In this document: positions 517-15,702 of the stretch, piece after piece
Layout of the letters: each line of letters opens with the position of its first letter
Numbering within the stretch: position 1 is the stretch's first letter
NCBI GenBank assembly: GCA_031290295.1
Contig: JAITNT010000197.1
Location: forward strand, 1 to 15,702
DNA from: Clostridiales bacterium
GTDB lineage: Bacteria; Bacillota; Clostridia; Christensenellales; DUVY01
Direction: 5' to 3'
Length of the DNA: 15,702 nt
The notes under the pieces: generated by a model
Databases searched by the model: none
What the model was told of the DNA's origin: nothing
Seen by the model: only the letters and a program-made list of their open reading frames with translations
Position numbers and translations under genes: made by a program

Positions 517-984
517 TTATTTGCCCTCTTCGCTCCTCGCCTCTTCCGCCCTTTGCGCTTTTTGCGCCCGCAACACCGCGATTCTGGCGGTTATGGCGGC
601 GAAAGCCTCGGCGGGATCGTCTATACTCAAACAGAGCCGCTCGAAAGGGCATACGGAAACGCCGTCGCGGGCGAGAATTATGTCGGTTTTTCGGTCGCAG
701 TCGTAAGAAATATTGTACCGCTCCAGCACCTCTGCGCCTCTTGCGCTCATTAGCCCCGCGTGTACCGCCTTGGCTTGCCCGTAGGCGGCAAGGAACGCCG
801 CCGCGCCTCCGACAACCCTATCGGCGACGGACGCGCCTATGAGTGCGCCCGGATCGTCTTTTAAGAGGTCGGACAAGGGGGAAATCCCCGTTTTATGCGA
901 GGTAAATTCGCGCTCGCCCTTTACCGCGGTTACCGTATAATTGTTTTCTCTAAAGAGCGCGACCGCCCTTTCTAAATCGGTCAT
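517..984 (-). CDS. DUF1893 family protein
   Basis: This 155-aa protein matches my recollection of the DUF1893 family, typified by Thermotoga TM1506, which has a cytidine-deaminase-like fold without an established reaction. The family hallmarks are visible: GALIGASVADRVVGGAAAF at about residues 46-64, an alanine-rich helix near LAAYGQAKAVHA (65-76), and the CPFE segment at 112-115 followed by an acidic DDP and a C-terminal helix. The last ~20 residues are highly charged and probably disordered. The start is supported by TAGGAGA a few bases upstream. It is the last gene of a minus-strand run, 49 bp after the ECF S component, and is probably cotranscribed with it. Its molecular role is unknown. 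The family call is fairly secure from the GASVADRVVG and CPFE blocks. Confidence 0.8.
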   Translation of the reverse strand: MTDLERAVALFRENNYTVTAVKGEREFTSHKTGISPLSDLLKDDPGALIGASVADRVVGGAAAFLAAYGQAKAVHAGLMSARGAEVLERYNISYDCDRKTDIILARDGVSVCPFERLCLSIDDPAEAFAAITARIAVLRAQKAQRAEEARSEEGK

Positions 985-1033
985 AATATCTCCTAAAGCA
1001 ACGTAAAGCCGCTTCGCATTAATTTATAAAAAA

Positions 1034-1567
1034 TTACCGCCCGAGTAGCTTTACCGTTAACGGTATAACCGTGAACTGTATCAGCATACCCGGCCAGCCG
1101 GCGATAATTGCGGCGAAATAGCCGTCGAGAGTGAGCGGCGTAACGGCGGCGAACGTCAGCACGCCCAGCGCGTAAACGCCCTTGCCCGCGATTATCGCAA
1201 GCGCTGTCGAGAGGAGTATTCCGGGCAGGCTTTTTTTGAAAGCCTTAGAATACAGTATGCCGCATACAAGCGCGTAAACGATAAGCTCGGCGGTCATAAA
1301 AGGCAGGGCGGCGGCGGGAGGCATACCGGTTATCGCGAACGCGAGTACCGGCGAGAGCGCGGCGACGCCCGCGGCGAACAGGGGGCCTACCAGGAAGCCC
1401 GCGAGAATTATAGGCAGATACATGGGCAGCAGCTGTGCGCCGAGCGTCCGTCCGCCCGCCATGTGCGTAAGCCACGGGAGCAGGACGGCGGCGGCGACCA
1501 GACCGACGGAAATTATCGCCTTTACCGGAATTGAATATTCCTTTTTGAGGGCTTGAGTGTTTTCCAT
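1034..1567 (-). CDS. ECF transporter S component (substrate-binding membrane subunit)
   Basis: This 177-aa membrane protein has about six hydrophobic segments and the LLPMYLPIILAGFLVGP signature at about residues 46-62, which is typical of S components of energy-coupling-factor vitamin transporters. In that family the S subunit captures a vitamin or related micronutrient and works with a shared EcfA/EcfA'/EcfT module. No A or T gene is in this window, so it is probably a stand-alone (group II) S component using a module encoded elsewhere. The conserved GMPPAAALPFMTAELIVY stretch (81-98) follows the first helices. The substrate cannot be told from sequence alone. The start is supported by GAAAGGAAG upstream on the minus strand. 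It lies 70 bp downstream of the aldo/keto reductase and 49 bp upstream of the DUF1893 gene. No riboswitch-like leader is visible. Confidence 0.82.
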   Translation of the reverse strand: MENTQALKKEYSIPVKAIISVGLVAAAVLLPWLTHMAGGRTLGAQLLPMYLPIILAGFLVGPLFAAGVAALSPVLAFAITGMPPAAALPFMTAELIVYALVCGILYSKAFKKSLPGILLSTALAIIAGKGVYALGVLTFAAVTPLTLDGYFAAIIAGWPGMLIQFTVIPLTVKLLGR

Positions 1568-1637
1568 AAAATTTACTTCCTTTCTTTTTTGTGGCGGCTA
1601 TGCTCCTTGCTCGCAAGGGGTTTAGGGCTGTTTGCGG

Positions 1638-2756
1638 CTATATAACCCTTTGCACCCAAGCGACTTGCTTTAGCTCCTTAGGTATGTCGATGCCTTGCGG
1701 GCATCTAGGGACGCATTTTTTGCACTCCGTGCAAGAGAGAGCAAGCTCCCTTTCTTTAAGGTCGCGCACGGACTCCTTCATGTTCTTTTCGCCGAGCCGG
1801 TGCGCGTTGTACAGCTTGAAATTTGCGGGGATATCCACGCCGGACGGACAGTCCATGCAGTAGCGGCAGCCGGTGCAGGGAATTGTGGAGAACTTTTTGT
1901 ATGCCGCGAGCGCGTCGGCAACGGTTCTTTGTTCGGCGTCGGACAGCGGCTCAAACGCGCCGAAGGTCGCTATATTATCCTTAACCTGACCGAGCGTAGA
2001 CATGCCGCTCAGGACGGTCATCACGCCGGGCAGCGAGCCGACGTAACGCAACGCCCACGACGCGACGCTTCTGTCGGGCGCGGCCGCCTTAAAAATATCC
2101 GCCGAGTCCTTACAGGGCGCGGCAAGCAGTCCGCCGCGGACGGGTTCCATTATGACGACGGGAATTTTGCGGTCGGCAAGCTCGCCGTAATAATATTTTG
2201 CGTTTTGACCGTCCCAATCGATATAGTTTAGCTGTATTTGCGTGAAATCCCACTTATACTCCGCCAGTATATCGTCAAAGGTTTTGCGGTCGCCGTGAAA
2301 GGAGAAGCCCAGACGTTTTATAATTCCCCGCTCTTTTTTCTTTTTGAGAAACTCGTACGCTCCGAAGTCCTTCATTTTTTTGTAATTGTCCCCGTCGAGC
2401 GCATGCACGAGGTAGAAGTCGAAATAACCGACGCCGAGCCTTTGCATTTGAGTGTCGAAAACCCTGTCCAAATCCCCGGGCTTTTCGATCTCCCACATAG
2501 GCATTTTTGTGGCGACCTTAACCGTGCTTCTGTCGATAGTTTTGAGCCACGCGCCCAAGGTCGGCTCGCTGTCGCCGCCGTGGTACATCCACGCGGTGTC
2601 GTAGTAATTGACGCCGTTTGCGTAAGCGTAATCCAGAAGCTTAAACGCCTCCTTTCGGTCAATTTTTGGACTGTCCTTACTCTCGCAAGGCATACGCATA
2701 CACCCGAAGCCTAGCAACGAAATATCCCCGCCCTCGTTACACTTGCGTTTTTCCAT
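1638..2756 (-). CDS. Aldo/keto reductase with C-terminal [4Fe-4S] ferredoxin-type domain
   Basis: This 372-aa cytoplasmic oxidoreductase has an N-terminal aldo/keto reductase TIM barrel (about residues 10-285). The expected catalytic tetrad is present: Asp53 and Tyr58 in the YYDTAWMY block, Lys84 in ATKMP, and His118 in YLVH. The C-terminus adds two cysteine clusters, C294-x2-C297-x2-C300-x2-C303-P and C342-x2-C345-x2-C348-x3-C352-P, as in the Fe-S AKR group common in anaerobes. It probably reduces carbonyl compounds, with electrons passing through the clusters, but the substrate is unknown. The first gene of a three-gene minus-strand run, it has a good promoter at 2790-2818. The AUG is preceded by a modest GGGGGA Shine-Dalgarno sequence. 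The intact tetrad and both clusters suggest an active enzyme. Confidence 0.92.
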   Translation of the reverse strand: MEKRKCNEGGDISLLGFGCMRMPCESKDSPKIDRKEAFKLLDYAYANGVNYYDTAWMYHGGDSEPTLGAWLKTIDRSTVKVATKMPMWEIEKPGDLDRVFDTQMQRLGVGYFDFYLVHALDGDNYKKMKDFGAYEFLKKKKERGIIKRLGFSFHGDRKTFDDILAEYKWDFTQIQLNYIDWDGQNAKYYYGELADRKIPVVIMEPVRGGLLAAPCKDSADIFKAAAPDRSVASWALRYVGSLPGVMTVLSGMSTLGQVKDNIATFGAFEPLSDAEQRTVADALAAYKKFSTIPCTGCRYCMDCPSGVDIPANFKLYNAHRLGEKNMKESVRDLKERELALSCTECKKCVPRCPQGIDIPKELKQVAWVQRVI

Positions 2757-2789
2757 TTCTCATTCCCCCGTTCATACGCCGATAATACA

Positions 2790-2818
2790 AATATACCAAT
2801 AAACGGCGCACTAGTCAA
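2790..2818 (-). promoter_or_regulatory. Sigma-A-type promoter for the aldo/keto reductase operon
   Basis: On the minus strand, TTGACT (plus-strand 2818-2813) is followed by a 17-bp spacer and TATATT (2795-2790). That is one mismatch from the -35 consensus and one from the -10. It points at the aldo/keto reductase start 34 bp away and lies back to back with the TfoX promoter, with 9 bp between the two -35 boxes. Confidence 0.75.
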
Positions 2819-2827
2819 GCTAAAATC

Positions 2828-2856
2828 TTGTAATTATCCATAAACGGTGGTATAAT
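2828..2856 (+). promoter_or_regulatory. Sigma-A-type promoter for the TfoX-domain gene
   Basis: TTGTAA at 2828-2833, a 17-bp spacer and a perfect TATAAT at 2851-2856 precede the TfoX-domain gene by about 48 bp. The -35 box lies 9 bp from the -35 box of the divergent aldo/keto reductase promoter, so one regulator bound between them could affect both. Confidence 0.8.
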
Positions 2857-2904
2857 ATAAACGCATATAAGCGGTTGCGGGTATTAAAAAAAGGAGAGTG
2901 GCAA

Positions 2905-3228
2905 ATGGCTACAAAATTAGACACCGTACTTTATCTTTGCGAGCAGCTTGCCGACGCGGGCGAGGTACGGTACAAGAGGATGTTCGGGGAATACATGATT
3001 TACCTGGACGCCAAACCCGTTCTTTTGGTATGCGACGACACCGTCTTTGTCAAAATTAACGACACTACCTCGCGCATACTGGGCGCGGATAACGAGAAAG
3101 GCTTCCCCTATGACGGCGCAAAGGAGCATTACGTTGTGTCCCTTATAGACGACCGCGAAGCCTTCGGCGCGCTGACCCGGGCGATTGCGGAGGCAACTTC
3201 GTTCCCTAAAAAAGCGGTCAAGCATTAA
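2905..3228 (+). CDS. TfoX N-terminal-domain protein
   Basis: This is a small cytoplasmic protein of about 107 aa that matches the stand-alone TfoX/Sxy N-terminal domain. The family pattern is clear: the RYKRMFGEYMIYLD block near the N-terminus, LLVCDDTVFVKI in the middle, and a GFPYDGAKEHYVV segment before the final helix. In gamma-proteobacteria Sxy/TfoX acts with CRP in competence regulation. Free-standing N-domains in Clostridia have no established function, so I infer none. I chose the ATG at 2905 because AAGGAG (2891-2896) sits 8 nt upstream. The same frame extends back to a TTG at 2875, but that would place the Shine-Dalgarno sequence inside the gene. It has its own promoter (2828-2856), so it is probably monocistronic, and it converges with the desulfoferrodoxin gene. 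Confidence 0.85.
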   Translation: MATKLDTVLYLCEQLADAGEVRYKRMFGEYMIYLDAKPVLLVCDDTVFVKINDTTSRILGADNEKGFPYDGAKEHYVVSLIDDREAFGALTRAIAEATSFPKKAVKH

Positions 3229-3232
3229 GCGC

Positions 3233-3311
3233 GCGGGCGCTTCAGGGGCAAACGCATAAAAATGCGCCCGCCCCGGCGAACCCTATGTTACAAACCGTTT
3301 GACCGGGGCGG
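3233..3311. terminator. Nested GC-rich stem-loops between convergent genes (possible bidirectional terminator)
   Basis: The 89-bp gap between the convergent TfoX and desulfoferrodoxin genes holds several alternative hairpins. One pairs GCGGGCGC (3233-3240) with GCGCCCGC (3264-3271). A second pairs CCGCCCCGG (3268-3276) with CCGGGGCGG (3303-3311). A third is the small CGCAT-AAAA-ATGCG hairpin at 3253-3266. The first two share bases and exclude each other. No clear U-run follows on either strand, so a rho-independent terminator is only a tentative reading. Confidence 0.35.
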
Positions 3312-3317
3312 CGGCAA

Positions 3318-3704
3318 TTATAGCTCTTTCCGCCACAGCCCGTGTAAATTGCAGTAATCGAACGCGGCGACAACCTCGTCGTCCGCCGAAAGCGCAAAGG
3401 TTATGCGCGGAGCTTCGCCGGGAAAAAGCGGCTTATAATACGCGCCCCGTTTAAGCTCCAAGCCCACCCATTCTATGTAGTGCTCCGTAAGCATCGGATG
3501 CGCCGCCGTTCCGATATCCACGGTGACGGTACGATCCTTGACGCTGATTACGGGAACGTGCTTTTCGTGCGACGCGTCCGCCGTGTTCGGTTGTAAACGC
3601 GACATCTTTTCCCCGCAACAAACGAGCGGCACGCCGCTGTCTTTGAGTAGGACGGCGATCGAACCGCAATGCTTGCACCTGACAAACGGGCTTTCGTTGT
3701 TCAT
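3318..3704 (-). CDS. dfx: Desulfoferrodoxin (superoxide reductase, class I type)
   Basis: This 128-aa protein reduces superoxide to hydrogen peroxide without releasing oxygen, the usual solution in anaerobes. Both metal centres are visible. The N-terminal desulforedoxin-like centre I has Cys10, Cys13, Cys29 and Cys30. Centre II, the catalytic Fe(His)4Cys site, has His49, His69, His75, His121 and Cys118, with the conserved Glu47-Lys48 next to His49 and the CNLHG motif near the end. All expected ligands are present, so it should be active. Electrons usually come from rubredoxin, which is not in this window. The start is supported by AAAAGGAGA upstream. Its promoter (3761-3789) is back to back with that of the MATE transporter. 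I saw no clear PerR box. Confidence 0.96.
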   Translation of the reverse strand: MNNESPFVRCKHCGSIAVLLKDSGVPLVCCGEKMSRLQPNTADASHEKHVPVISVKDRTVTVDIGTAAHPMLTEHYIEWVGLELKRGAYYKPLFPGEAPRITFALSADDEVVAAFDYCNLHGLWRKEL

Positions 3705-3760
3705 AAATATAATCTCCTTTTAATCCGGCAGAGGAAAGCGCGGTTGCGCACCCTTTACCG

Positions 3761-3789
3761 TTTATAGTTTAGCACAACGCGCCGGGCAA
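3761..3789 (-). promoter_or_regulatory. Probable promoter of desulfoferrodoxin
   Basis: On the minus strand, TTGCCC (plus-strand 3789-3784) is followed by a 17-bp spacer and TATAAA (3766-3761), 57 bp upstream of the desulfoferrodoxin start codon. The -35 box is imperfect. Confidence 0.55.
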
Positions 3790-3817
3790 GTCTATTGAAA
3801 AAACAGGGCGCAATTTG

Positions 3818-3847
3818 TTGTCATATTTTATAGATTTATTGTACAAT
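3818..3847 (+). promoter_or_regulatory. Probable promoter of the MATE transporter
   Basis: TTGTCA at 3818-3823, an 18-bp spacer and TACAAT at 3842-3847 lie about 70 bp upstream of the transporter start. They are divergent from the desulfoferrodoxin promoter, with 28 bp between the two -35 boxes. Confidence 0.65.
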
Positions 3848-3918
3848 AGATAAATATCCGTTTTTATTACCGCGCAGGATAAATATCAATCGGGGTAGCG
3901 GCTTGAGAGGAAGTACAA

Positions 3919-5370
3919 ATGAGTGAAGAACCGGGAGCGGCGGCGATCGAGGTTATCGATCGTGAACAGCTGCGCTCCAAAAAAATGAAAGAAATGCCCG
4001 TCGGCAAGCTGCTGTTCGTAATGGCGCTGCCTGCGATAGTCTCCATGCTCGTGCAGGCGCTGTACAATGTCGCGGACACTATTTTTATCGGCATGAAATA
4101 CGGCCTAGACGGCATAACCGCGCTTTCGATCGCTAACCCGATGCAGCTTTTGATGATAGCCGCGGCTATCGGTATCGGCGTCGGCACGAACGTGCAAATA
4201 GCAAAAAAGCTCGGCGAGGGCAAGCCGGAGGAGGCCTCGCAGGCGGCTAAGACCGGAATGCTTTTGTCCGTAATCGGGGCGGTTATTTTTACCGCGCTCG
4301 GGTTTATCGTTTCCGGACCGTTTATCGAGGGCTTTACCGAGGCGGGCGGCGCCGTCGCGGAATACGGAACTACCTATTTGAGCGTTTGCATGATAGGCTG
4401 CGCGGGCGTTTTTGTCGGCGTAAATTGCGCAAGGATATTGCAGGCCACCGGCAACATGAAAATGCCTATGATAAGTCAGCTTATCGGGGCGATAATAAAT
4501 ATCGCGCTCGATCCGCTGTTTATTTTTGTTTTTGACATGGGGACGCTCGGGGCGGCGCTCGCTACCGTTATCGGGCAAGTCGCATCCATGCTTTTTGCGC
4601 TTGCCGTATTTATTTTTAAGAAGCAGGACGTTTCGATTTCGCCGAGAGGCTTCAGGGTAAAGCGGACGGACATCGCGAGCATTTTGATTATCGGGCTGCC
4701 CACTATCGTTATGAACGCCGTAAACGCCTTTACCGTGCTCATTCTCAATCTGATAGTTATTCCGATTAACGAATTCGGAATCCCGATTCTAGGGGTTTAT
4801 CTCAAGCTGAACGCCTTTGTGTTTATGCCGCTTTTCGGGCTGATGCAGGGGCTGATGCCGATACTGTCCTATAATTTCGGGTACGGCGACAAGGCGCGGT
4901 ATAAGCAGGCCTACAAAAAAGCCATGATTACCTCGCTGATAATAATGACGGTCGGTTTTATACTGTTTTTGACTATGCCGCAGTATCTGGTGCGGCTTTT
5001 CGGCATCGGCGGGGACGTGTCCCCCGACAGGGTTTCTCAATATATAGCCGCGGCTACGACCGCGCTGAGGATAATAGCCGTTTGTTTCCTCCCCGCCGCC
5101 TTTAACGTAGTGAATACAACGGCCACACAGTCGCTCGGCAAGGGCGCGATTTCTCTGATTATGTCGCTGCTCAGGCAGGTGATAATATTGATCCCCATGG
5201 CGGCGCTGCTCGGCTATATTACGATAGCGCAAAACGGAACGGGCTTTTGGTTCTCTTATCCCATTGCGGAGACGGTAGTTTTTCTTATTTTTACGCCGTA
5301 CGCGCTGCGCATGATTAACAAAAGGTTTGCCGAAAAGGAAAAAGCCCGTCGCAGCCTGGAAACCGATTAG
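3919..5370 (+). CDS. MATE family multidrug/sodium antiporter-type efflux transporter
   Basis: This 483-aa inner-membrane protein has about twelve hydrophobic segments in two homologous halves, the size and layout of MATE transporters of the bacterial MepA/DinF-like kind. Family features include LPAIVSMLVQALYNVADTIF at about residues 37-56, the ALDPLFIF motif at the end of the sixth segment (about residue 196 on), and LGAALATVIGQ right after it. The second half has the QGLMPILSYNFGYGD signature near residues 313-327. It probably exports cationic drugs or metabolites using a sodium or proton gradient; the substrate is unknown. The first ~25 residues are a soluble, charged extension. The ATG is preceded by GAGAGGAAG. 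It has its own promoter and converges with the large minus-strand cassette 640 bp away. Confidence 0.93.
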   Translation: MSEEPGAAAIEVIDREQLRSKKMKEMPVGKLLFVMALPAIVSMLVQALYNVADTIFIGMKYGLDGITALSIANPMQLLMIAAAIGIGVGTNVQIAKKLGEGKPEEASQAAKTGMLLSVIGAVIFTALGFIVSGPFIEGFTEAGGAVAEYGTTYLSVCMIGCAGVFVGVNCARILQATGNMKMPMISQLIGAIINIALDPLFIFVFDMGTLGAALATVIGQVASMLFALAVFIFKKQDVSISPRGFRVKRTDIASILIIGLPTIVMNAVNAFTVLILNLIVIPINEFGIPILGVYLKLNAFVFMPLFGLMQGLMPILSYNFGYGDKARYKQAYKKAMITSLIIMTVGFILFLTMPQYLVRLFGIGGDVSPDRVSQYIAAATTALRIIAVCFLPAAFNVVNTTATQSLGKGAISLIMSLLRQVIILIPMAALLGYITIAQNGTGFWFSYPIAETVVFLIFTPYALRMINKRFAEKEKARRSLETD

Positions 5371-5940: not shown

Positions 5941-5977
5941 GGAGAAGCAAGACAGCCGCCCATAGAGGGCGGCTGTC
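5941..5977 (-). terminator. Terminator hairpin of the helicase/AAA cassette
   Basis: GACAGCCGCCC (5951-5961) and GGGCGGCTGTC (5967-5977) form a perfect 11-bp stem with a 5-nt loop. In the minus-strand transcript the stem is followed by TTGCTTCTCCC, an imperfect U-rich tail. It lies 34 bp after the AAA ATPase stop and is the natural end of the five-gene unit. Confidence 0.7.
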
Positions 5978-6010: not shown

Positions 6011-7147
6011 TTACTCTATCTTAAACGTCTTATACATCGCTAACATCTCGTCGGTCAGGCGGGACGGATTTTCCTTGAAGGAGCGGGTTATCATTTCGCG
6101 GGTGAGAGGTATGGCGTTGGCTATTTGCCGATCCTGCAGCTCGCTTATGGCGTACATACAGGCGTTTTCGATTATGCCGCAAATATCGGCGGCGGAATAA
6201 TTGCCGTCGGGCACGCACGCCATTTCGAGAATCATTTCCTCGGTGATATCGTCGGCAAGCCCTACCGGCGGGATTTTTTTGCGGATTATTTCCAGCTTTG
6301 CCTCGGGGTCGGGCAGCTCCACATACAGCTGATACGAAAAACGCTTGAACCTGAGGTAGGCGGGATCGATCGCGTCGGGGCGGTTGGTGGCGGCGAGCAT
6401 AATGCGCTTTGCGCCGCTTACGCCGAAGCCGTTCATGCGCTGCAACAGCTCGGTGGTTACCGCCGCCTTGTAGTCCTTGGTGTCCTGCGAACGCTTGCTG
6501 AATATGGATTCGCATTCGTCTACAAAAAGTATCGCGCCGTCCTCGCAGGAGTCAAGCTCGGTAAAGATATCTCTTACGGCCTGCTCGGATTCGCCGACGT
6601 AGGACTTAAAAATGTCCGCCGGCGTGATTATGAAAAGCGGCAGGTTCATCGCGTTGGCGATTGCCTCCGCCATCATGGTTTTGCCGGTGCCGGGCGGGCC
6701 GTACATCAGCATACCGAGACCGCCCTGAAGATTATATTGCTCGACAAGCGTGTCGTTCTTGGCGATAAAAATGAAGTTATTGATTATGCGCTTGACCTCC
6801 TTCAGCCCCTTAACGTCGTCAAGCTTGGTGTCGGGAATCTTGCTTTTTATAGCCGAACCGCACGCGCTTGCCGCCGCGGAAAGCTTCTGATAGTCGTCCT
6901 TATAGCCCTTTTGAAGCTCGTAATCGACCACGCGTTCCGAAAGTGCCTTTGCCGTTCTTGCCGCGTGCAGGTACGCCATGCGGATTGCGCTCTTGTCCTT
7001 GTCGTTAAGCTCGTTGCGGTCCTTTTTGATTTTTAAGAGCGCGCGGATTTTTTCCTTTGCCTGCGCGTATTCGGCTTTTAGCTCCTCGATGCTTAATCCG
7101 CCCGTCTTGCCCTTAGCGTCGTCGGAATCCTTCTTGATATTACTCAT
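6011..7147 (-). CDS. AAA ATPase of the Vps4/katanin (meiotic) type with helical N-terminal domain
   Basis: This is a 378-aa single-domain AAA ATPase. Visible motifs are Walker A GPPGTGKT (150-157), pore-loop 1 with an aromatic residue at SYVGE (Tyr183), Walker B ILFVDE (206-211), sensor-1 Asn255, and the two arginine-finger positions Arg266 and Arg269. The end, NPSRLTDEMLAMYKTF, resembles the closing helix of Vps4, katanin and spastin. Residues 18-104 are predicted by eye as three helices of the size of a MIT domain, which in Vps4 relatives binds client tails; that reading is inference. It probably forms a hexamer that threads or disassembles a protein partner. All catalytic residues are intact. 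It is the last gene of the cassette, 25 bp after the 230-aa helical protein, with GGGAG upstream of the ATG. The client is unknown. Confidence 0.88.
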   Translation of the reverse strand: MSNIKKDSDDAKGKTGGLSIEELKAEYAQAKEKIRALLKIKKDRNELNDKDKSAIRMAYLHAARTAKALSERVVDYELQKGYKDDYQKLSAAASACGSAIKSKIPDTKLDDVKGLKEVKRIINNFIFIAKNDTLVEQYNLQGGLGMLMYGPPGTGKTMMAEAIANAMNLPLFIITPADIFKSYVGESEQAVRDIFTELDSCEDGAILFVDECESIFSKRSQDTKDYKAAVTTELLQRMNGFGVSGAKRIMLAATNRPDAIDPAYLRFKRFSYQLYVELPDPEAKLEIIRKKIPPVGLADDITEEMILEMACVPDGNYSAADICGIIENACMYAISELQDRQIANAIPLTREMITRSFKENPSRLTDEMLAMYKTFKIE

Positions 7148-7172
7148 GTATAATTTCTCCCTATGCCGTCGG

Positions 7173-7865
7173 TTAAATCAAATCGTCTACGCCGGGCGCG
7201 CCGGTCGAGCTTCCGCCGCCGCTAGGTGCCGGGGCGAAGTCGGGCGCGCCGGTTGCGCCGCCCGTTCCGTCCGCGCGTGAATCCGCAAGCTTTTTGTCGA
7301 GCAGCATCTGCACCTGAGGGGACAGCGCACCCGCGGGCGTTTGACCTTTTTTTGTTTTTTTCTTAGGCGCAAAGCTCGCGGACATCTTATCGAGCGTCTT
7401 GCCGAACTGCGCCGACGCGCCGGTTATGTTGCGGAAAACGCTTTGCACGTGCTGTATGCGGCGTTTCCACTGCGACCAATAACGGCGGCGTTTGAAATAC
7501 TGCTTTATGCTCCTGAAAACGGAATACTTCTGCGTTTCCGGCGTGAAGAAATCGTCGATCATGAGCAGCGCGTTGTCCATAAGCACAAGCGTTTCGTTGA
7601 GCATGCTCATCATATCCTCCATGTTCAGGATCAGATCGGTGAATTCCTGCAGGGGGACGAGAATGTTAAGCATTGCCGCCGTCATTCGCGCTATCGGGTG
7701 CTCCTGATCGTACTTAGTGCAGACGTCGATATACTTCGTAAGAGAGGCGTCGATTTTTGCGTCGATTCTCTGCTTGCTTTCCTCGAGCCGTATTTGCTGG
7801 AACATGTTGTTGACCTCGCGCGCGCTTTCTTCCTCCAGCTTGGTAAGGCTTTTTTGTTCTGCCAT
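7173..7865 (-). CDS. Helical protein with basic patch and Gly/Pro/Ala-rich tail, function unknown
   Basis: I do not recognise this 230-aa protein. Residues 1-60 are charged and helical. Residues 61-108 are rich in Leu and Met (LILNMEDMMSML, LVLMDNALLMI), as in an amphipathic bundle, not a membrane span. A strongly basic, aromatic stretch KRRRYWSQWKRR follows at 125-136 and could contact membrane or nucleic acid. Residues 165-175 are again lysine-rich. The final ~35 residues are a flexible Gly/Ala/Pro/Ser linker ending in the acidic-hydrophobic tip GVDDLI. A short helix SPQVQMLLDKKLADS precedes the linker. No signal peptide or catalytic motif is seen. It is encoded directly before the AAA ATPase, with a strong AAGGAGA site, so an adaptor or substrate role for that ATPase is a reasonable inference. 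Confidence 0.8.
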   Translation of the reverse strand: MAEQKSLTKLEEESAREVNNMFQQIRLEESKQRIDAKIDASLTKYIDVCTKYDQEHPIARMTAAMLNILVPLQEFTDLILNMEDMMSMLNETLVLMDNALLMIDDFFTPETQKYSVFRSIKQYFKRRRYWSQWKRRIQHVQSVFRNITGASAQFGKTLDKMSASFAPKKKTKKGQTPAGALSPQVQMLLDKKLADSRADGTGGATGAPDFAPAPSGGGSSTGAPGVDDLI

Positions 7866-7903
7866 TATATTTCTCCTTTATCGTTTTTTTGTGCTTATAC
7901 TCT

Positions 7904-10900
7904 TCAAATAGCCGGTATCGACGAGACGTGCTTCCTCACGGCTTTTTTGAGATTTTCCCGTTCGGCGGCGGTGTTTTTTATCCAGTCGTAAATGTAGACG
8001 GGGTATAGCGTCCAGCCGCGAACCTTGAGGGTGTCGGGATACCTTACCGTATAGTCTGTGTAATCGAACTTGCGAGGCTGTTTTTCGCACATGACGCCTA
8101 ATTGCGCGCTCGTCAGATCCTCGGACAGCACCGCGATCGGTATGCGGACGGAATTTTCGGTGATGCCGTAATTACAAACTATGCGCTTTCGGTCGATGCC
8201 CAATCCCGCGAGGTAGTCCGCTACGCCCGAAATAAAGCCGCTGTCCTCCTTGTCGGTGACGAACTGCGCCCCGGAGTCGTCGGAATCGAAGCGCTCGACC
8301 CTTTCGATGTATTCGCGTATGTACTGTAAGGACGGCACGGTTATCTCGTAAGAGCGCACGGAGTGAATGAGCATTACGGCGGATTGCGCCCGCGTGACGG
8401 CTACGTTAAAGACCTTTTCGCCGAGAGTGTCCTCGCCGTTACGGTTAAGCGTACCGAAGGCGTTGACAATTTTGCCGTTCTCTCTGCGTCCGTAGGTGAG
8501 GGACAGAATGATTTTGCTCATCTCGTGACCCTGCACGTTCTCGATCGTGCGGATAAAGAAATTTTTATCGGCGACCTCGTCCTTTAGGGAACGCACCCTG
8601 CTTATTATACCCGACAAGTACTTGTCTCTGTCAATCAAATCATGCACCCTTTGCGCTTGTTTTTGTCCGAACGTAACTACGCCTACGGATTGCGTAAGTC
8701 GTCCCGACGCCTCGTCGAAGTAACGCCCGAAGTGTTCCCTCAGCTTATCGCAAATACAAACCGCTTCCTTCAGGTTAACGCCGCCCTCGCAAATGCCGTC
8801 CTCTACGTACACGTCGAACAAGCCGCGTTCGCTTGTGCGCGGCGTTACGGACGGAAAGGTTATCAGATCCTTGTAGTAGCGCGACTGCGAATAGTCGATG
8901 AGGGTTTCGGTAAGACTGCGGTAATGGCTCAAAAGCGGAACGGAATCGAAGGACGCGTTCTGATTTACAAGGTCGAGCACGGAGGCGACGCTTAACAGAT
9001 CGTCGTCGTCCGAAGCCCCGTCGTCCGTCGTCCGTACGAAATGCCGTATTATGGGCATTTGATGCTCGTCGCCGACTATCACGCACTGCTTCGCGCGGTA
9101 AAGCGCGGGTATCACGTATTCCGGCGTCAGCTGGCTCGCCTCGTCGAAGATGACGGCGTCGAACTCCGCGTAGTCCTTGGGGCGCAACAGCAGGCTTACC
9201 GTAGAGGGGGACATAATCAGGCAGGGCTTGAGCTTGAGTATTTGCCCGGGCTTTTCCTTAAACAGCGCGCGACCCGTCTTGAATTGATTTTTTACCCGCA
9301 GGAAGCCGAACTCGTCGGACTTAGGGTCGAACCCGTGCGAAAGACTGTGCGCGGTAATTTTGGCGTTAAGCGCGCAAAGCGCCGCCTCGCCGTCTCTCAC
9401 CGCGGTCAGGTTATCCACCAGACTGTTGCGCGTTAAATTGCGTGCGAACTTGTCGAGCTTTTGCTCCGCGCCGATAATGCACAACCGCAGGAAGCTGTGC
9501 GCGAACAGCTCCTCGAGCCTGGCGAACGGAAATTTTTTGCGGTCGGCGGCAAGGTAGTCGCGGAAGAACCGCGGAATATTCACGGGGTACTCCGCGCCGA
9601 GCATGGCGCCTAAGCTTACCGCGTCCGCAAGGGCGGCGCGGTCGGCAACGTGCGCGACCCAAATTTTGAGGTCGGCAAGCCGTATTTGAGTAAGCCCGCG
9701 ATACGCCGAGGAGGCGAAATTATCGGCATAGAAGCCGCTTAGCGCGTCTAAGGTTTTTTTGACGTTCAGGTCGGCTTGAAGTCTTGCGACGGCGGCGAGG
9801 ACATCCGTTACCGCCGTGTCGGAGGCAGTAACGCCCGCGCCGTGCATTTCCTGCAGTCGGGCGAGCGCGTTAATCTTGCGCGAATAATTTCTCCACGCGT
9901 CCGCGTCCGCGTCGCACTCGGACTTAAAGCCGTATCGCGTCTCCGCGGCCTCGACGCGTCCGCCGAATTCCTTGATAAGGGCGGCGGTCTCATAAATAGC
10001 GATAACGCCCTCCGCGGCGCCCGCCTGCTCGGCTGTAACCCCGACCGCCTTGAGCGCGCGGCGCAGAACCGGCTCGGCGGCAAAGATTCCTTGCAGACAG
10101 CTTTCTAACCTCTTGGCATCGTACCCGCCCGTGAAGCCGAGCAGAGCGAGGAAGTCCTCCGCATCCGCCTCGGTTATCTCGGTTTTGATTACCTGCTTGA
10201 CCGATTGCAAAACGGCTTGAGCCGTCGCGGTATGCGCCGTGCATTCCGTAAAGGCTTTGAGCGCGCCGCACGCCTCCTTGAAGCTCGTAAATTCCGGGTG
10301 CCGCGCGTATTTTTTGATTATTTTGCCGTACGCCGCCTTAGCGAAAAGGTCGAGCGTTTTGGGCTTGTCGCAGCCGTCGTATTTTTCGAGCGGCTTGTAG
10401 CAAGCAATCAACGCTTCCTGCCGCTTAACGCCGGCGAATTTTTTTTCGTCGAGTATTTTTACCGCCGTTTCATAAGCCGCGAACGCCGCGGCCGTTTCGT
10501 CGCGGTACTTGAGCCACGCCGCCTTCAGGACGGACTGCTCGGCGGCGGAACGCATAAGCTTATCGTAAAAAGGCGCGGCGGCGGCGATTCTGAAGCAAAG
10601 CGCCGTCGGAAGCTTGCGGTCAAGCTTGAGGAGCTTCAAGGCGGGCAGCATACCCGCGTCGGCGTTCAGAGCGTCCCCGCCGAGAGTATTCAGCCATGCG
10701 ATACGCGCTTCTCCGTCTATAATCGCGGTCGCAAGCGCGGTTATTTCGAGCGCGGCTTCCTTTAGCGTGCCGCTCTTTAAGAACGCGCGCGTCTGCTCGG
10801 GCGAAATATCGTAATCGGTAAGCTCTGCCGCCGTGCGGCAGTCGATACTCATAAGAAATTCCGCGCGCGCGGGGTGATTTTCCGCGTAAACGCCGAGCGC

Positions 10901-12490
10901 GGACAGCAGCCCGTTTACCCCGTCGGTAAGCGCGAGGGCTTTTTGATAAACGCCGTCGTAGCCCTCGGTCGCGGGCATCAGACCGACCCACGGATTCAAG
11001 CCGAGCGGAAAAATATGTCCGTCCGTCAGCCGCGCGAGCAGGGTGTTGATTTTGGCGACGCAATCCTTGATCGCGGCGTACGCCCCGTAGTCTATCGCGA
11101 AGCAACGCTCCGGCGTGTCGAAGTCTACCGTTTCCGCGTCGAGGTTGCGGCAATATTCGTCTAACAGCCCGTAGAGAGGACCGCTCAGCGACAGCGGCAG
11201 CTTAAACATAATCTGCGCGTAATCCGACATAGCCTCCTTGGCGACGGCAAGCTTGCGGTAAACGCTCTCTCTGTCCGCAAGCGCGGTAACCGCGTTGGTT
11301 ACGGGGCTTGTTTTTAGCAACGTGTCGTGAAGCTCGGAATGCACGGTATTAACGTCTATGCGCGAGCTTTCCGTCTCGTAATCCATGCGCAGCAGATAAG
11401 GCCGCAGAGAGTCGGGCATTTTGTTGTAGACCTCGGACAGCGCCGCTATTTTTTGCGACACAAAAAGCACGCGCTTGCCCTGCGCCAGATACGCCGAGAT
11501 AAGGTTGGCGATGGTTTGGGTTTTGCCCGTGCCGGGAGGTCCCTGGACGACGAGATTTTCACCGGTGACGGCGCGGGTTATGATTTCGTGCTGGCGGCAG
11601 TCGCTTGAAAATACCGTAGCCAAATAGGGGAGCTTATCCGTCGCAGGCTTTTCTACGGGCTGCTTACCGAACACCGCGCGTATCAGCGGGTGAGCCTTTA
11701 TCGCGGTTTCGTTGCGCCTTATGTCGTGGTACATGCAGATGTCGCGGTTGTTGTACTTCGCGATAGCCGCCGCGTCGCGCTCAAAAGCGAACAGCCTGCG
11801 CGACTCCTCAGTATTATCGCCGAGCGTGTCGGTTATGTATGTTTCCAAACGGTCGAAGTAGTCGGTTATGTCGAAAGCGTCGGTATTTATGTCGTCTAAA
11901 ACGACGGGCAGGGGCAGCTTACCCTTCATGCCGGGCACGGTTTTTTCGAGCTTCAGGAGGAAGCTCGGGTTAAAGAAAATCTGGTCGTTGACAAATTCGA
12001 TATAGACGGGTTGCGCCTTGTCGCCCGGACAGGTAAGCTTGATAGGAAAAATTATCAGCGGCGACAAAACCTCCTTGATTTCGTCGTGCGAGCCTACTAT
12101 TTCCCAACGGATAGCGCCAAGAGAAAGGAACATCGGATTAGTGCCTTTTTGGCGGATAAAGTCAAGCCCCTCGTCCTTGAACTTATGCAGGGACGGAATT
12201 TTGCGTTCCTCGTCGGCGTAGAACCAATCTAACAGCTTTACCGAATCGCCGAGCTGCTTTGTGACGGCGTGTTCCGCGCTGTCGCGCAAAGCGACGGTGG
12301 AAATTTTGCCGAGGTTATCTCTTATCAGCTCGTACAGGATACCGCTTTTTGCGCTCAGGAAAAACGACGGGTCGCGCGGACTCGACAAATCGATAAATTT
12401 GTTGCTGTCCTCCTCCTCGATATGAAGCAGCCGTTCAACGTATTTTTCCAAAACTTTATCCTCTCCGTAGTTATTTAGCTCCGCGCCCAT
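7904..12490 (-). CDS. Large SF1 (UPF1-like) helicase with DUF4011-like N-terminus and degenerate nuclease-like C-terminus
   Basis: This 1528-aa protein is a superfamily-1 helicase of the AAA_11/AAA_12 kind. The N-terminus has DUF4011-like blocks, NPMFLSLGAIRW (118-129) and SPLIIFPIKL (143-152). Motif I is GPPGTGKT (317-324). Motif II is FDEASQL with Asp1116-Glu1117, and motif III is GDEHQ (1140-1144). ENVQGHE represents motif V, and VAVTRAQ with Arg1367 motif VI. About 700 mostly helical, Ala-rich residues separate motifs I and II. Residues 1417-1528 resemble the Vsr/MTES_1575-type nuclease domain fused to such helicases, but the expected acidic residues are Ile1420, Pro1451 and Met1467. It probably unwinds or translocates on DNA or RNA; helicase residues look intact. 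The ATG at 12490 has a poor Shine-Dalgarno sequence, and a TTG at 12451 is an alternative. Confidence 0.9.
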   Translation of the reverse strand: MGAELNNYGEDKVLEKYVERLLHIEEEDSNKFIDLSSPRDPSFFLSAKSGILYELIRDNLGKISTVALRDSAEHAVTKQLGDSVKLLDWFYADEERKIPSLHKFKDEGLDFIRQKGTNPMFLSLGAIRWEIVGSHDEIKEVLSPLIIFPIKLTCPGDKAQPVYIEFVNDQIFFNPSFLLKLEKTVPGMKGKLPLPVVLDDINTDAFDITDYFDRLETYITDTLGDNTEESRRLFAFERDAAAIAKYNNRDICMYHDIRRNETAIKAHPLIRAVFGKQPVEKPATDKLPYLATVFSSDCRQHEIITRAVTGENLVVQGPPGTGKTQTIANLISAYLAQGKRVLFVSQKIAALSEVYNKMPDSLRPYLLRMDYETESSRIDVNTVHSELHDTLLKTSPVTNAVTALADRESVYRKLAVAKEAMSDYAQIMFKLPLSLSGPLYGLLDEYCRNLDAETVDFDTPERCFAIDYGAYAAIKDCVAKINTLLARLTDGHIFPLGLNPWVGLMPATEGYDGVYQKALALTDGVNGLLSALGVYAENHPARAEFLMSIDCRTAAELTDYDISPEQTRAFLKSGTLKEAALEITALATAIIDGEARIAWLNTLGGDALNADAGMLPALKLLKLDRKLPTALCFRIAAAAPFYDKLMRSAAEQSVLKAAWLKYRDETAAAFAAYETAVKILDEKKFAGVKRQEALIACYKPLEKYDGCDKPKTLDLFAKAAYGKIIKKYARHPEFTSFKEACGALKAFTECTAHTATAQAVLQSVKQVIKTEITEADAEDFLALLGFTGGYDAKRLESCLQGIFAAEPVLRRALKAVGVTAEQAGAAEGVIAIYETAALIKEFGGRVEAAETRYGFKSECDADADAWRNYSRKINALARLQEMHGAGVTASDTAVTDVLAAVARLQADLNVKKTLDALSGFYADNFASSAYRGLTQIRLADLKIWVAHVADRAALADAVSLGAMLGAEYPVNIPRFFRDYLAADRKKFPFARLEELFAHSFLRLCIIGAEQKLDKFARNLTRNSLVDNLTAVRDGEAALCALNAKITAHSLSHGFDPKSDEFGFLRVKNQFKTGRALFKEKPGQILKLKPCLIMSPSTVSLLLRPKDYAEFDAVIFDEASQLTPEYVIPALYRAKQCVIVGDEHQMPIIRHFVRTTDDGASDDDDLLSVASVLDLVNQNASFDSVPLLSHYRSLTETLIDYSQSRYYKDLITFPSVTPRTSERGLFDVYVEDGICEGGVNLKEAVCICDKLREHFGRYFDEASGRLTQSVGVVTFGQKQAQRVHDLIDRDKYLSGIISRVRSLKDEVADKNFFIRTIENVQGHEMSKIILSLTYGRRENGKIVNAFGTLNRNGEDTLGEKVFNVAVTRAQSAVMLIHSVRSYEITVPSLQYIREYIERVERFDSDDSGAQFVTDKEDSGFISGVADYLAGLGIDRKRIVCNYGITENSVRIPIAVLSEDLTSAQLGVMCEKQPRKFDYTDYTVRYPDTLKVRGWTLYPVYIYDWIKNTAAERENLKKAVRKHVSSIPAI
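12451..12465 (-). promoter_or_regulatory. Strong internal ribosome binding site before a TTG codon in the helicase gene
   Basis: On the minus strand GGAGAGG is followed by about 7 nt and a TTG (codon 14 of the long reading frame). The annotated ATG at 12490 has no comparable site, only GGGG more than 15 nt away. Translation may therefore start at the TTG, giving a 1515-aa protein that loses no recognisable domain. Confidence 0.4.
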
Positions 12491-12523
12491 TATGCGAGGG
12501 CGTTACCCCGTAAAGCGAGCCGG

Positions 12524-12550
12524 TTATACGCGTGTCCTAACGCGTTATAA
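12524..12550 (-). other. Hairpin in the gap between metallopeptidase and helicase genes
   Basis: TTATACGCGT (12524-12533) pairs with ACGCGTTATAA (12540-12550) with a one-base bulge and a 6-nt loop. In the minus-strand transcript it stands between the metallopeptidase stop and the helicase start. No U-tract follows, so it is not a usual terminator. It could be an mRNA processing or stability site, in the largest gap of the cassette (68 nt). Confidence 0.4.
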
Positions 12551-12558
12551 AAGGGACG

Positions 12559-14469
12559 TCAGCCGCCCTTTTTGGTGAAATTCAGCTCGTGCCGGTAATC
12601 GGCGCAGCCGTCCTTTGTGTCCGCCGCAAAAATGTTCGCATCCGTTTCCACCACCTGAACGAGATAGGATTTGCGGTTTTTTTCAAGCTCTATGTATGTG
12701 CCGAAGTTTAAGTGCCACTGCTCGATACGGTGACGGGACACCTGAAGCTCGGTGAAGAACCAATCCTGCCACGGCTCGCGCGTAGTTTTGTGCTGAAAGC
12801 TGTGATACATTTCGTGGGCGATCACGTCCGTTAAGAAGCTTACGTCGCCGTTAAGCGTTTTGCGCGTGAACTCTATCGTTTTGCCTCCGCCGCAACATTG
12901 TCCCGCATATTTGCAGTCGGGCTTGTCCGTGTATAAAACCTCGGGGTCGTAGGTCTCCAGTATGCGCCCTAACACCTTGCACGCGGTTTCGACGCGCTCC
13001 TCTTTCTCGGACTCGGGGATATCCTTCCATACGCTCGCATCGTCGCCAAGAAGCGCGCAGTACTGTACGGCAAGCCCGCATTTTGCGGTGAGCGGAATAC
13101 CCGGGCGCTCTATTATCGCCCGCAAATTCTCCGGGCGGAAGATATCGATAGTATCGTAATCGAATTCCTTGCGCGGCTTAGGCGGGGTCTTGCTAAGCTC
13201 GCACTGATAGTCCCAACCCGAATCGATAAGCATGTTGAGGTTGGGCATATCGCGGGCGAAGCGGTCGAACGCCGCCTTGTTGCGCTTATGGAAATATTCC
13301 GCCTTTGACCGCCACGTCTTGTAATTTATAAGCAGCTCGTTAAGCCCGATGAAGCCGAGAGTAGGGCAGTTGTGCCGCATAAAGTCCGTGTCGGCGGGCG
13401 TTTCCAGAAGCTTTGCCGCCTGCATAAGCTCGGTAACCGAGGGGTAATCCGGCACGGCGAGGTAGCCGTAGTTAAGCTTGCTGTCCAGTCCGTCGTATTC
13501 CGTATCGGCCGCCGCCCAGTCGGTAAGCGCGGTAAAAACGGTATGCGCCGCCGAGGTGTCCGCAAGTATTATGCGTTCCGCCGTCATCGAAAGACGGGCG
13601 ATATTGCGGTGCAGGCAGTCGAGATTTTTTTGGTTGCCGGTCAGATCGGTAAGCCCGAACAGATAAAAATATCCGTCGCTCGAGTCGAGCGCGAGCCGCT
13701 CGAAGCAATAATCGACCGCGTCCGTATCGGCGGCGGACAACGCCCCGACGTCCGCGGTAAACAGCTCCTTTTTGTTGCGGCGCGAAAACCTTTGGCACAG
13801 GAAATCTATTTCCTCTCTGAACGGCGAGCAGATAACCTGAACCTTGGCGTTGGCGGCGGCGTTGTCCAGAAGCGCGGAATAGTAATTGTATTTTCCGTAG
13901 TCGGCAAGGCTTACGCGGAAGGCGTTATAGACCGAGCCGAATTTTGCCTCCAAAATCCTCTGCCGCGCCTTTACGGTTTTGCCCCTTATGCGGGCAAGCT
14001 CCGCAAGCAGCGCGTCGCGGTAAAAAGGGACGGTCTCCAAATTAAGACGGGCGAGCGTACCCGCGCCGTCAAGCTCCGCTATAAGCGCGACGCATTGCGT
14101 CGCGGTTACGAGATCGCGCGACGCAGCTTCCGCCAACGCCCGCCGCCCGACCTCGGTCGCGTCTATTTGCAGCATCAATTGTTCCGCCTCGTCGCGCGCT
14201 AAGGGCGGGGGATTTTGAACGAGGATTTTGGCGCAAAGCTTTTGGCAGCGCTCATAAAGCTCGGGCGACAACGCATCACGGTATCTTATCGCCGCAATCC
14301 GCATTTGCAGGCGGTAGGTAAGTATGAGGGCGAGCGTTTTGTTGTCCTCGTTAAGCCCGTCGGCGGCGAATAAGCTTTCCAACGTTTTGTTGGCGGCCGC
14401 AAGGACTTTGACGTCCTCGCCGCTCGACAATACGGCGATTTCTCTTAGTGTTTCGGGATAAGTTTTCAT
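12559..14469 (-). CDS. Protein with C-terminal HExxH zinc-metallopeptidase domain and unrecognised N-terminal region
   Basis: This 636-aa protein ends in a zinc-peptidase-like domain. HEMYHSFQH holds the HExxH motif (His552, Glu553, His556), and Glu608 in the VVETDANIFA block is the likely third ligand, the pattern of gluzincin-type peptidases. All three ligands and the catalytic Glu are present, so activity is likely; the target is unknown. Residues 1-200 are helical and repeat-like. Residues 208-306 alternate strands and helices in a way that reminds me of an AAA+ core without Walker motifs (CSPFREEI where a P-loop would be, YLFGLTDL where Walker B would be); this is tentative. A CQCC-like cysteine group lies near 527-532. 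There is no signal peptide. It starts 6 nt after the preceding stop, with AGGA in the junction, which implies translational coupling. Confidence 0.78.
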   Translation of the reverse strand: MKTYPETLREIAVLSSGEDVKVLAAANKTLESLFAADGLNEDNKTLALILTYRLQMRIAAIRYRDALSPELYERCQKLCAKILVQNPPPLARDEAEQLMLQIDATEVGRRALAEAASRDLVTATQCVALIAELDGAGTLARLNLETVPFYRDALLAELARIRGKTVKARQRILEAKFGSVYNAFRVSLADYGKYNYYSALLDNAAANAKVQVICSPFREEIDFLCQRFSRRNKKELFTADVGALSAADTDAVDYCFERLALDSSDGYFYLFGLTDLTGNQKNLDCLHRNIARLSMTAERIILADTSAAHTVFTALTDWAAADTEYDGLDSKLNYGYLAVPDYPSVTELMQAAKLLETPADTDFMRHNCPTLGFIGLNELLINYKTWRSKAEYFHKRNKAAFDRFARDMPNLNMLIDSGWDYQCELSKTPPKPRKEFDYDTIDIFRPENLRAIIERPGIPLTAKCGLAVQYCALLGDDASVWKDIPESEKEERVETACKVLGRILETYDPEVLYTDKPDCKYAGQCCGGGKTIEFTRKTLNGDVSFLTDVIAHEMYHSFQHKTTREPWQDWFFTELQVSRHRIEQWHLNFGTYIELEKNRKSYLVQVVETDANIFAADTKDGCADYRHELNFTKKGG

Positions 14470-14475
14470 AACGTC

Positions 14476-15663
14476 CTAAACATCTTCGGGTGTTTTTTTT
14501 GCGTTGTTCTTGGCGAGTATTTCTTCCAGCGGGTCGCCGAGAGAGGCGGGGTTAATTTGCTGCGCCGCCGGGTTCGGGATCGGATTAACCGCGCCGCCGG
14601 AGAAGCCGTATTTTGCCATTACGTCCTCCGCGCTCATCGCGGTCTTTGCCTTTTGCTGATTTGCGTACAGCGCGGCGGGGTCCTTTTGCTTGAGGGCGGG
14701 CTGCGAGGCTCTTTGCTTTTCCTTGAGCTTGTCCATGATAACGGGATAAATATCCAGCGAGCGCACGTTGTTATCGATGGTTTTGGTGAACTGCGTAATC
14801 TTGATTATGGCGACCTTTATGGGGTCGTTGTCGCTCATTTGCCCCGCGGTATTCGCGTTTCCGAGCGCGAGCGCGTTGATTACCTCGGAGTAATCTATGC
14901 CGCCGAAAATTTTATAAAGAAAGGCGTTAGCGGCGGGCATCGCGTGTACGATATCCCAATAGGTGCTTATCTGATTTTTGAGCGCCGACGAGGTCTCGTT
15001 AAATCTGCCTATCGAGGAATAGTAGGTCTGCTTTTCCGACAGCCGCCCGTTTTCCTCGGCAAGACGGGACAGGCGTATGTCGGCGTCGGCGGGCGAAATA
15101 ACGCCGTTCTGCATTTGTCCGACTATCGTCTGCATCTCCCCGGAAATTTTGGACATGCGTTCCTCCACGTCCTTAGCCTGATTATCGAACTGCTTCGAGG
15201 AGGTATCGATAACCTTAAAGTACTGCGCAATTTTGGGCGCTACGTCCCTTTGACATAACAAATAGTAGTGCAGATCGTCCTCGTAGGAGGGGGCTTGCAC
15301 GAGTTTTTTTGCGGACACCTTAGGCGCGAAGGAATTTTTGAGCGCGACCCAGTCCTTAGAGAGGGTGACGAGCTTCTTTATACCGCCCGAGGTGAGCATA
15401 TTCGTAGACAGCTCCTTGCGGCATTTTTCCAGCTCCTTGAGTATCTCCGCGGCGACGTCGTTGCCCTTTTCGGAGGCCACCTCAACCACGTCGAAAATAT
15501 TGCTCTTTGCCTGATTGAGGTCGGCGATAGCGTTTTCATAGAAAACGTTGTCGTAAATAAGCAGCTCGCCTTTTTTCTTGAGCAGACGGGCTTCCTCCTG
15601 CTTTAACGCTACCCCCTCTATAGTGTCGTTCAGGTATTCGATAACGATAGTCTTTGCGTCCAT
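14476..15663 (-). CDS. Helical coiled-coil protein with flexible C-terminal tail, function unknown
   Basis: I do not recognise this 395-aa protein. It is nearly all helical by composition. Residues 10-120 are charged helices, 155-215 look like a coiled coil (EERMSKISGEMQTIVGQMQ, then RLSRLAEENGRLSEKQ), and 216-315 form a more compact helical region. From about 320 a Pro/Gln/Asn/Ala-rich linker leads to a terminal helix SLGDPLEEILAKNNAKK. This plan, helical body plus flexible tail plus short terminal motif, is shared with the 230-aa protein of the cassette. AAGGAGG stands upstream of the ATG at 15663, but the reading frame is open through 13 more codons to the window edge, so an earlier start cannot be excluded. 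It may be the first gene of the unit or follow others outside the window. Confidence 0.75.
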   Translation of the reverse strand: MDAKTIVIEYLNDTIEGVALKQEEARLLKKKGELLIYDNVFYENAIADLNQAKSNIFDVVEVASEKGNDVAAEILKELEKCRKELSTNMLTSGGIKKLVTLSKDWVALKNSFAPKVSAKKLVQAPSYEDDLHYYLLCQRDVAPKIAQYFKVIDTSSKQFDNQAKDVEERMSKISGEMQTIVGQMQNGVISPADADIRLSRLAEENGRLSEKQTYYSSIGRFNETSSALKNQISTYWDIVHAMPAANAFLYKIFGGIDYSEVINALALGNANTAGQMSDNDPIKVAIIKITQFTKTIDNNVRSLDIYPVIMDKLKEKQRASQPALKQKDPAALYANQQKAKTAMSAEDVMAKYGFSGGAVNPIPNPAAQQINPASLGDPLEEILAKNNAKKTPEDV

Positions 15664-15702
15664 TACCTTTGTATCCTCCTTGATTAAATCCGCGTAGTTA
15701 TG

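Follow-up and report, generated by a model that had tools for sequence, protein, structure and literature searches.

We analyzed a 15,702-nucleotide (nt) stretch of DNA from a Clostridiales bacterium (hereafter 'the window'), which is an entire contig (C290 of genome G000) of a draft genome of 62% completeness. An original prediction, made from the sequence alone, had described in it an unrecognized cassette of five genes on one strand. Open reading frame (ORF) calling reproduced that layout, with genes A, B, C, D and E following one another on the minus strand (Table 1; the call for A spans 15663–14476) and separated by the predicted gaps of 6 nt (A/B), 68 nt (B/C), 38 nt (C/D) and 25 nt (D/E). 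The terminator proposed for the end of the cassette corresponds to a strong hairpin with a modest T tail; its stem is the longest among 20 terminator-like sites in the window (shuffled sequences gave 17.0 +/- 4.8 sites). The further claim, that no other transcription unit lies inside the cassette, stands in part: promoter-like sites occur there at chance level (6 observed versus 6.1 expected), so an internal unit is not indicated, but transcription as a single unit is not proven either.

These five genes make up the latter half of a ten-gene unit, Q-S-Z-R-X-A-[B-C]-D-E, that is conserved in some gut Clostridia. In this unit Q encodes an Hsp70-like protein, S an SNF2 helicase, Z a Cys-rich protein, R a membrane protein with repeats and X a zinc ribbon protein, followed by a coiled-coil protein (A), a zinc protease (B), a DUF4011 helicase (C), a helical protein (D) and an AAA ATPase (E). 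The cassette as first described is therefore real and ordered, but incomplete, and the Hsp70, SNF2 and membrane proteins alter the picture drawn from its five genes. The missing half lies on another contig of the window's own genome (C82), on which the end of Q is followed by S, Z, R, X and, truncated by the contig end, 96 codons of A; this contig was also the sole match when 388 genomes of the phylum were searched with Q (E-value 1e-10). The ends of C82 and C290 do not overlap, but we infer that the two contigs are adjacent in the genome and that the break falls inside gene A. That gene is open at the right edge of the window, and its relatives (n = 28, 466–533 amino acids (aa)) have about 110 more N-terminal residues than the window's A; the ATG at 15663 therefore most likely lies within the gene.

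E, at an E-value of 1e-85 or better, was found in 26 of 396 genomes of the order, distributed over seven families. In all 12 of these positive genomes that were fetched, the order Q-S-Z-R is kept as far as each stretch extends and leads into X-A-[B-C]-D-E. The complete unit measures about 22–23 kilobases in the three genomes for which its length was computed by hand (G634, G640 and G596). A class-wide sample contained E in 1 of 381 genomes, the window's own, and neither this wider class sample nor the phylum sample (388 genomes) yielded a unit beyond that genome.

Recurrence in distant genomes had been named beforehand as the test on which the cassette would stand or fall, and its genes were found to recur in seven families at low identity, as a conserved and ordered system. 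We scanned 84,980 species genomes by alignment with E; because the scan demanded two short peptide patterns, its count of at least 36 loci is a lower bound. The E relatives of 34 loci are 49–57% identical to the window's E, and two partial matches (L071 and L072, with 30% and 24% identity) were discarded as unrelated. Profiles made from the scan loci were run on 45 loci, comprising the window, these 34 and 10 from further genomes; in four of the 45 E alone is visible, at a contig end. D immediately precedes E in 40 of the 41 loci with sequence upstream of E, the exception being L101, in which D was undetected (matches to D in family f17 are weak, at 3e-4 to 4e-4). X precedes A in every locus that extends far enough to contain it (33); three others (the window, L070 and L104) start too close to A. 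Median gaps within the unit range from −4 to 20 nt. Relatives are 11–19% (A), 16–22% (D) and 49–59% (E) identical to the window's proteins. Two scan records (L039 and L067) carry the labels Bacilli and Acholeplasmatales.

Within this unit, B and C behave as a pair that is either present or missing as a whole, and where it is missing A, D and E remain. B adjoins C in all 24 loci with a full C, and all 14 loci in which A is directly followed by D have neither gene; in three further loci a C truncated by the contig start is all that is visible. The co-occurrence that the proposed pairing of helicase and peptidase would require holds wherever both genes can be seen. On a midpoint-rooted tree of E (43 rows, with G707 left out) family f17, which has B and C, is deepest, and the absence of the pair requires two changes, which we read as two losses of B-C; the window and several others sit on long branches whose exact positions are unsure. 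A search for B in 60 relatives found it in one other genome (G010), in which the neighborhood has the window's order with two B genes in tandem (A-B-B-C-D-E) and the aligned parts are 23% (A), 27% (B), 35–37% (C), 20% (D) and 56% (E) identical to the window's. The two tandem B genes (L005/L070) encode proteins of 644 and 627 aa that are 35% identical, suggesting that the effector can duplicate.

Chance adjacency of genes without any shared function is an extremely improbable explanation of these loci. No experiment links the genes and one genome has a rearranged order, but a single order is kept in six of the seven families at low sequence identity (family f24 is rearranged and lacks B and C), and the coupled loss of B and C is likewise difficult to reconcile with mere adjacency. 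The rearranged locus (L104, G678:C65) encodes a 935-aa A, D, E and a 275-aa ORF, and then Q-S, without B or C.

Table 1. Positions of the cassette genes, their domains and motifs, and the associated hairpin (window coordinates unless a locus is named).
Feature	Position	Strand	Basis
Gene A, coiled-coil protein, C-terminal 408 codons	14476..15702	-	5'-open ORF at contig end
N-terminal piece of A (most likely)	L146:10201-10490 (end of C82)		96-aa piece
Gene B, predicted zinc metalloprotease, 636 aa	12559..14469	-	H552, E553, H556 and E608 invariant in 21/21; AlphaFold2 mean pLDDT 83.5
B residues 171-413, AAA-like domain without P-loop	13231..13959	-	predicted fold
HExxH motif of B, residues 552-556	12802..12816	-	invariant in 21/21
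Gene C, superfamily 1 (SF1) UPF1-type helicase with DUF4011, 1528 aa	7904..12490	-	Pfam AAA_11 1.2e-17, AAA_12 3.7e-8, DUF4011 1.1e-6
C residues 1443-1517, MTES_1575/Vsr-like nuclease domain, predicted inactive	7940..8164	-	weak Pfam match, 17.1 bits, below cut-off
Gene D, helical protein with GSAP-rich linker, 230 aa	7173..7865	-	34-row family
C-terminal tail of D, GVDDLI	7176..7193	-	tail pattern in 33/34 D proteins
Gene E, classical single-domain AAA ATPase, 378 aa	6011..7147	-	PF00004 4e-34
N-terminal domain of E, residues 1-103, outside the AAA match	6839..7147	-	conserved in 24 rows
Terminator-like hairpin 3' of E	5951..5977	-	11-pair stem, 9 G-C, just beyond E stop

B is predicted to be a zincin positioned behind an AAA-like domain that lacks a P-loop. 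The HExxH motif of the original prediction is present in all 21 aligned B proteins (including that of the window), each of which combines it with a downstream Glu, as in gluzincins. The full P-loop pattern is present in none of these 21 proteins, and a looser GK[ST] pattern gave three stray matches. Comparison of the predicted B structure using Foldseek returned Ycf2-FtsHi and FtsH among its best matches, and the 50 matches listed for the model were all taken up by the AAA-like domain. For the protease, the SprT, M48 and M78 zincins were considered, and an SprT-like match reached 14.6 bits, below its cut-off. The sequence profile of B found no useful relative in the PDB, and a predicted membrane segment was absent from the three B copies scanned. 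In a protein database search with B (as a single sequence or as a profile) the window protein stood alone among the 8000 candidates with the most shared words, which were the ones scored, a result that is no measure of rarity.

B resembles FtsH and the i-AAA proteases in its domain order, with an HExxH zinc protease behind an AAA-like domain. It differs from FtsH in that it lacks a predicted membrane segment and in that the active AAA domain of the unit is encoded by a separate gene (E), and the missing P-loop sets it outside the FtsH proteases.

C is a DUF4011-type, UPF1-like helicase, as originally described, with scores above the Pfam cut-offs for DUF4011 (29.2 versus 22.2 bits), AAA_11 (64.9 bits) and AAA_12 (33.6 bits). 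Its C-terminal nuclease-like domain looks catalytically dead, judging from acidic positions that are changed relative to those of related helicases. All 17 cassette copies of C have Pro at the first and Glu at the last conserved nuclease position, both of which we take to be catalytic positions. Among 29 other DUF4011 loci, 11 gave a readable motif, with Asp (7), Ser (3) or Gln (1, probably misplaced) at the first position and Asp at the last in all 11. If the nuclease-like domain of C is indeed degraded, B is left as the one clear catalytic effector of the B-C pair. A helicase search of 391 genomes of the class gave matches in 42, including the window's; the other 41 hold different DUF4011 helicases that are 29–36% identical, mostly across the C-terminal part.

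E displays the Walker A, Walker B and arginine-finger patterns of classical AAA proteins in all 37 aligned rows (35 distinct). Its description as 'Vps4-like' is apt for the layout (an N-terminal domain and one AAA domain) and less so for the sequence, as the nearest solved structures found by sequence profile are of the VCP/Cdc48 type. A tail of the form [hydrophobic][DSGN][DN][ILV], such as IDDI, ends 33 of 34 D proteins. One relative of D (L043) is predicted to fold into three long helices, with a mean predicted local distance difference test score (pLDDT) of 64.5. One locus (L066, 8555–9942) has two copies of D, of which the second (188 aa) is without the conserved tail, and the A protein of the same locus ends in IDDIIF. 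The profile of A matched coiled coils and similar helical proteins alone in the PDB. Homology between A and D was rejected as unproven (10.8% probability), although a D profile free of A sequences weakly matched two A rows.

An AAA protein with an additional N-terminal domain, whose partner has long helices and ends in a conserved tail, recalls Vps4 with ESCRT-III and CdvBC. The unit could accordingly be pictured as a bacterial membrane remodeller of this kind, with D (and A) forming filaments whose tails are read by the N-terminal domain of E. We consider this very unlikely. The sequence profile of D found no useful PDB relative and no match to ESCRT-III, E scores 121 bits against the CdvC model NF041006 (cut-off 650), and no MIT protein appears among the 60 sequence matches listed for the N-terminal domain of E (best E-value 0.092).

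In the upstream half, the fragment of Q from the window's genome matches Pfam HSP70 (E-value 1e-12, 47.5 bits versus a cut-off of 20.6), and a profile of Q aligned with four DnaK proteins in hhalign at 1.5e-6 with a probability of 90%. S of one relative (L112) matches the PADLOC models of DrmD (1.9e-30) and BrxH. R ranges from 920 to 1748 aa across genomes and has four to five hydrophobic segments, with MBG repeats in the three relatives scanned. The R of the window's genome (L146, 5621–9001) by eye contains many similar repeats after its membrane segments.

As a gene system, the unit matches no known family among those tested, in line with the remark that the cassette fits no named system. 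C shares a helicase core with the antiphage proteins Hhe and ProA (NCBIfam names Hhe a DUF4011 protein). C differs from both in belonging to a ten-gene unit and in its seemingly dead nuclease-like domain, and the relation to Hhe suggested earlier does not extend to membership, since C scores 270.1 bits against the Hhe model NF042953 (cut-off 2000) and 397.9 bits against the ProA model NF058533 (cut-off 1500). The PADLOC model PDC-S37 (PDLC05009), which has no curated cut-off, matched C as a protein at 5.9e-124 and 413 bits. Matches to PDC-S37 were found in 65 of 161 genomes of the order, with full-length matches at 900–1450 bits, and cassette C proteins (of G000, G500 and G010, at 240–266 bits) are among the weakest listed. 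Four genomes (G482, G021, G530 and G042; L147–L150) hold helicases that match this model at 1300–1450 bits.

These matches bear on the original proposal, in which the genes form a specific antiphage defense system of the helicase-plus-effector type. We regard that as rather unlikely. The resemblance of C to Hhe, ProA and PDC-S37, of E to IetA, and of S (L112) to DrmD and BrxH would all agree with it, as would the patchy presence of the unit across seven families and the loss of the B-C module. The distance of C from the curated cut-offs of Hhe and ProA, the commonness of PDC-S37 matches and the lack of a consistent defense island in the flanks argue to the contrary.

Other known systems share parts of the arrangement. 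CoCoNuTs, as portrayed in the portion of their description available to us (PMC11090510), are likewise multi-gene and chaperone-rich, with Hsp70-like proteins, a UPF1-like helicase, coiled coils and zinc ribbons; the same portion mentions an occasional Cdc48-like AAA protein and an inactivated PD-(D/E)xK fold. They are type IV restriction systems that form a branch of the McrBC systems, and that portion contains no arrangement of SNF2, MBG and zincin. McrB and McrC were not among the matches listed for A–E (at an E-value of 1) or for Q, S, Z, R and X (at 0.01; the best 25 for E and S), and the unit is therefore not a CoCoNuT by that measure. IetAS also encodes an AAA ATPase with a protease, and E matches IetA at 2.4e-32; the score is 98.7 bits for a cut-off of 510 (NF042959). 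The partner in IetAS is a serine protease, whereas that of the unit is a zincin. The unit is also distinct from DISARM and BREX, as Q, Z, R and X of L112 and the window's A, B and D have no PADLOC match. This gene set is undescribed among the matches listed from the open-access literature, which mostly leaves subscription papers outside, so that an earlier description is possible; the nearest in style, from the portions of the sources available, are the CoCoNuTs (PMC11090510) and nucleoside triphosphate (NTP)-dependent conflict systems (PMC7159879).

We propose, with a probability of roughly 0.42, that the ten products together form one ATP-driven surveillance and remodelling machine, of which the window encodes the second half. 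In such a machine R would anchor the assembly at the membrane or report from it, and Q and S (Hsp70-like and SNF2) might set its state or load it onto nucleoprotein. A and D would serve as long helical scaffold or adaptor subunits. E, as an active AAA ring, would grip D (and some A proteins) by the conserved C-terminal tail, and its pulling would assemble, disassemble or reset the complex. C may sense nucleic acid or translocate on it, while no longer cutting it, and B, in which a zincin is fused to an AAA-like domain that lacks a P-loop, would be the effector that cleaves protein on a signal from C and E. The physical complex, the gripping of tails by E, the effector function of the protease and the role in the cell are all inferred. 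The most likely role would be surveillance of foreign or aberrant nucleoprotein complexes, for which phage defense is a leading but unproven case, with defense and quality control about level.

Several observations weigh against this proposal. Foldseek E-values for B are no better than 2.6e-3, with low template modelling scores (TM-scores), and comparison of the profiles of B and E gave no homology, so the AAA assignment of B rests on its predicted fold. The N-terminal domain of E matched no known peptide-binding domain and has no convincing sequence relative in the PDB (best E-value 0.092). Four Q proteins (L112, L114, L118 and L122) are without a Pfam match at an E-value of 0.01, the Q profile is without a PDB match at 0.001, and the R of the window's genome has no MBG match. 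Because some loci hold the unit without B and C, its function cannot consist of protease action alone. With respect to a role in defense, a setting in a defense island was not supported: 10 proteins were picked from 57 flanking ORFs listed, and two of them (an AAA protein and a DUF262-like protein) match PADLOC while eight do not. Furthermore, no relative of B was found in viral contigs (searched with one peptide pattern), phages or plasmids, and the unit is nearly fixed in one genus (13 of 17 genomes).

The last three results would suit a chromosomal quality-control or stress machine without antiphage function, one that acts on stalled or crosslinked complexes of the cell itself (nucleoprotein or envelope-linked) by repairing them or clearing them away. 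The presence of a chaperone (Q), a classical AAA protein (E) and a membrane protein (R) among the parts would fit as well. Such a housekeeping role is nevertheless at odds with the absence of the unit from 370 of the 396 genomes of the order, including all five other members of the window's own family in that search, and with the matches of helicases C and S to defense-library models. We consider it possible, though doubtful.

The finding of the unit is real and larger than first described; for the mechanism we offer a model, parts of which are backed by strong motif evidence. A further reading, to which we assign a low probability, is a new type of bacterial machine: a membrane-linked ten-protein complex in which E reads the tails of ESCRT-III-like D and A, and a split FtsH-like B is aimed at nucleoprotein by a nuclease-dead C, such that the core can persist after losing its proteolytic module. 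The gene set of the unit is shared by none of the known systems tested. If the model is true, a single bacterial machine would combine chaperone, helicase, AAA and protease activities with a membrane protein, and it would include a natural split AAA protease whose motor and protease are encoded separately. Natural variants that have lost B and C but kept A, D and E offer a clean way to tell the sensing, moving and cutting parts apart. An antiphage function would make the unit a large new system in gut Clostridia; otherwise it would be an unrecognized surveillance machine.

The surroundings of the unit were also inspected. Directly downstream of E in one locus (L109, 2383–4239) lies a gene that we read as DUF262-like, with PADLOC matches to HEC-06 and SspE. 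Several other flanking genes appear by eye to be ordinary metabolic or transport genes. In the window itself, positions 517–5370 by eye hold ordinary genes (an aldo/keto reductase, a desulfoferrodoxin-like protein, a MATE transporter and an ECF-type membrane protein).

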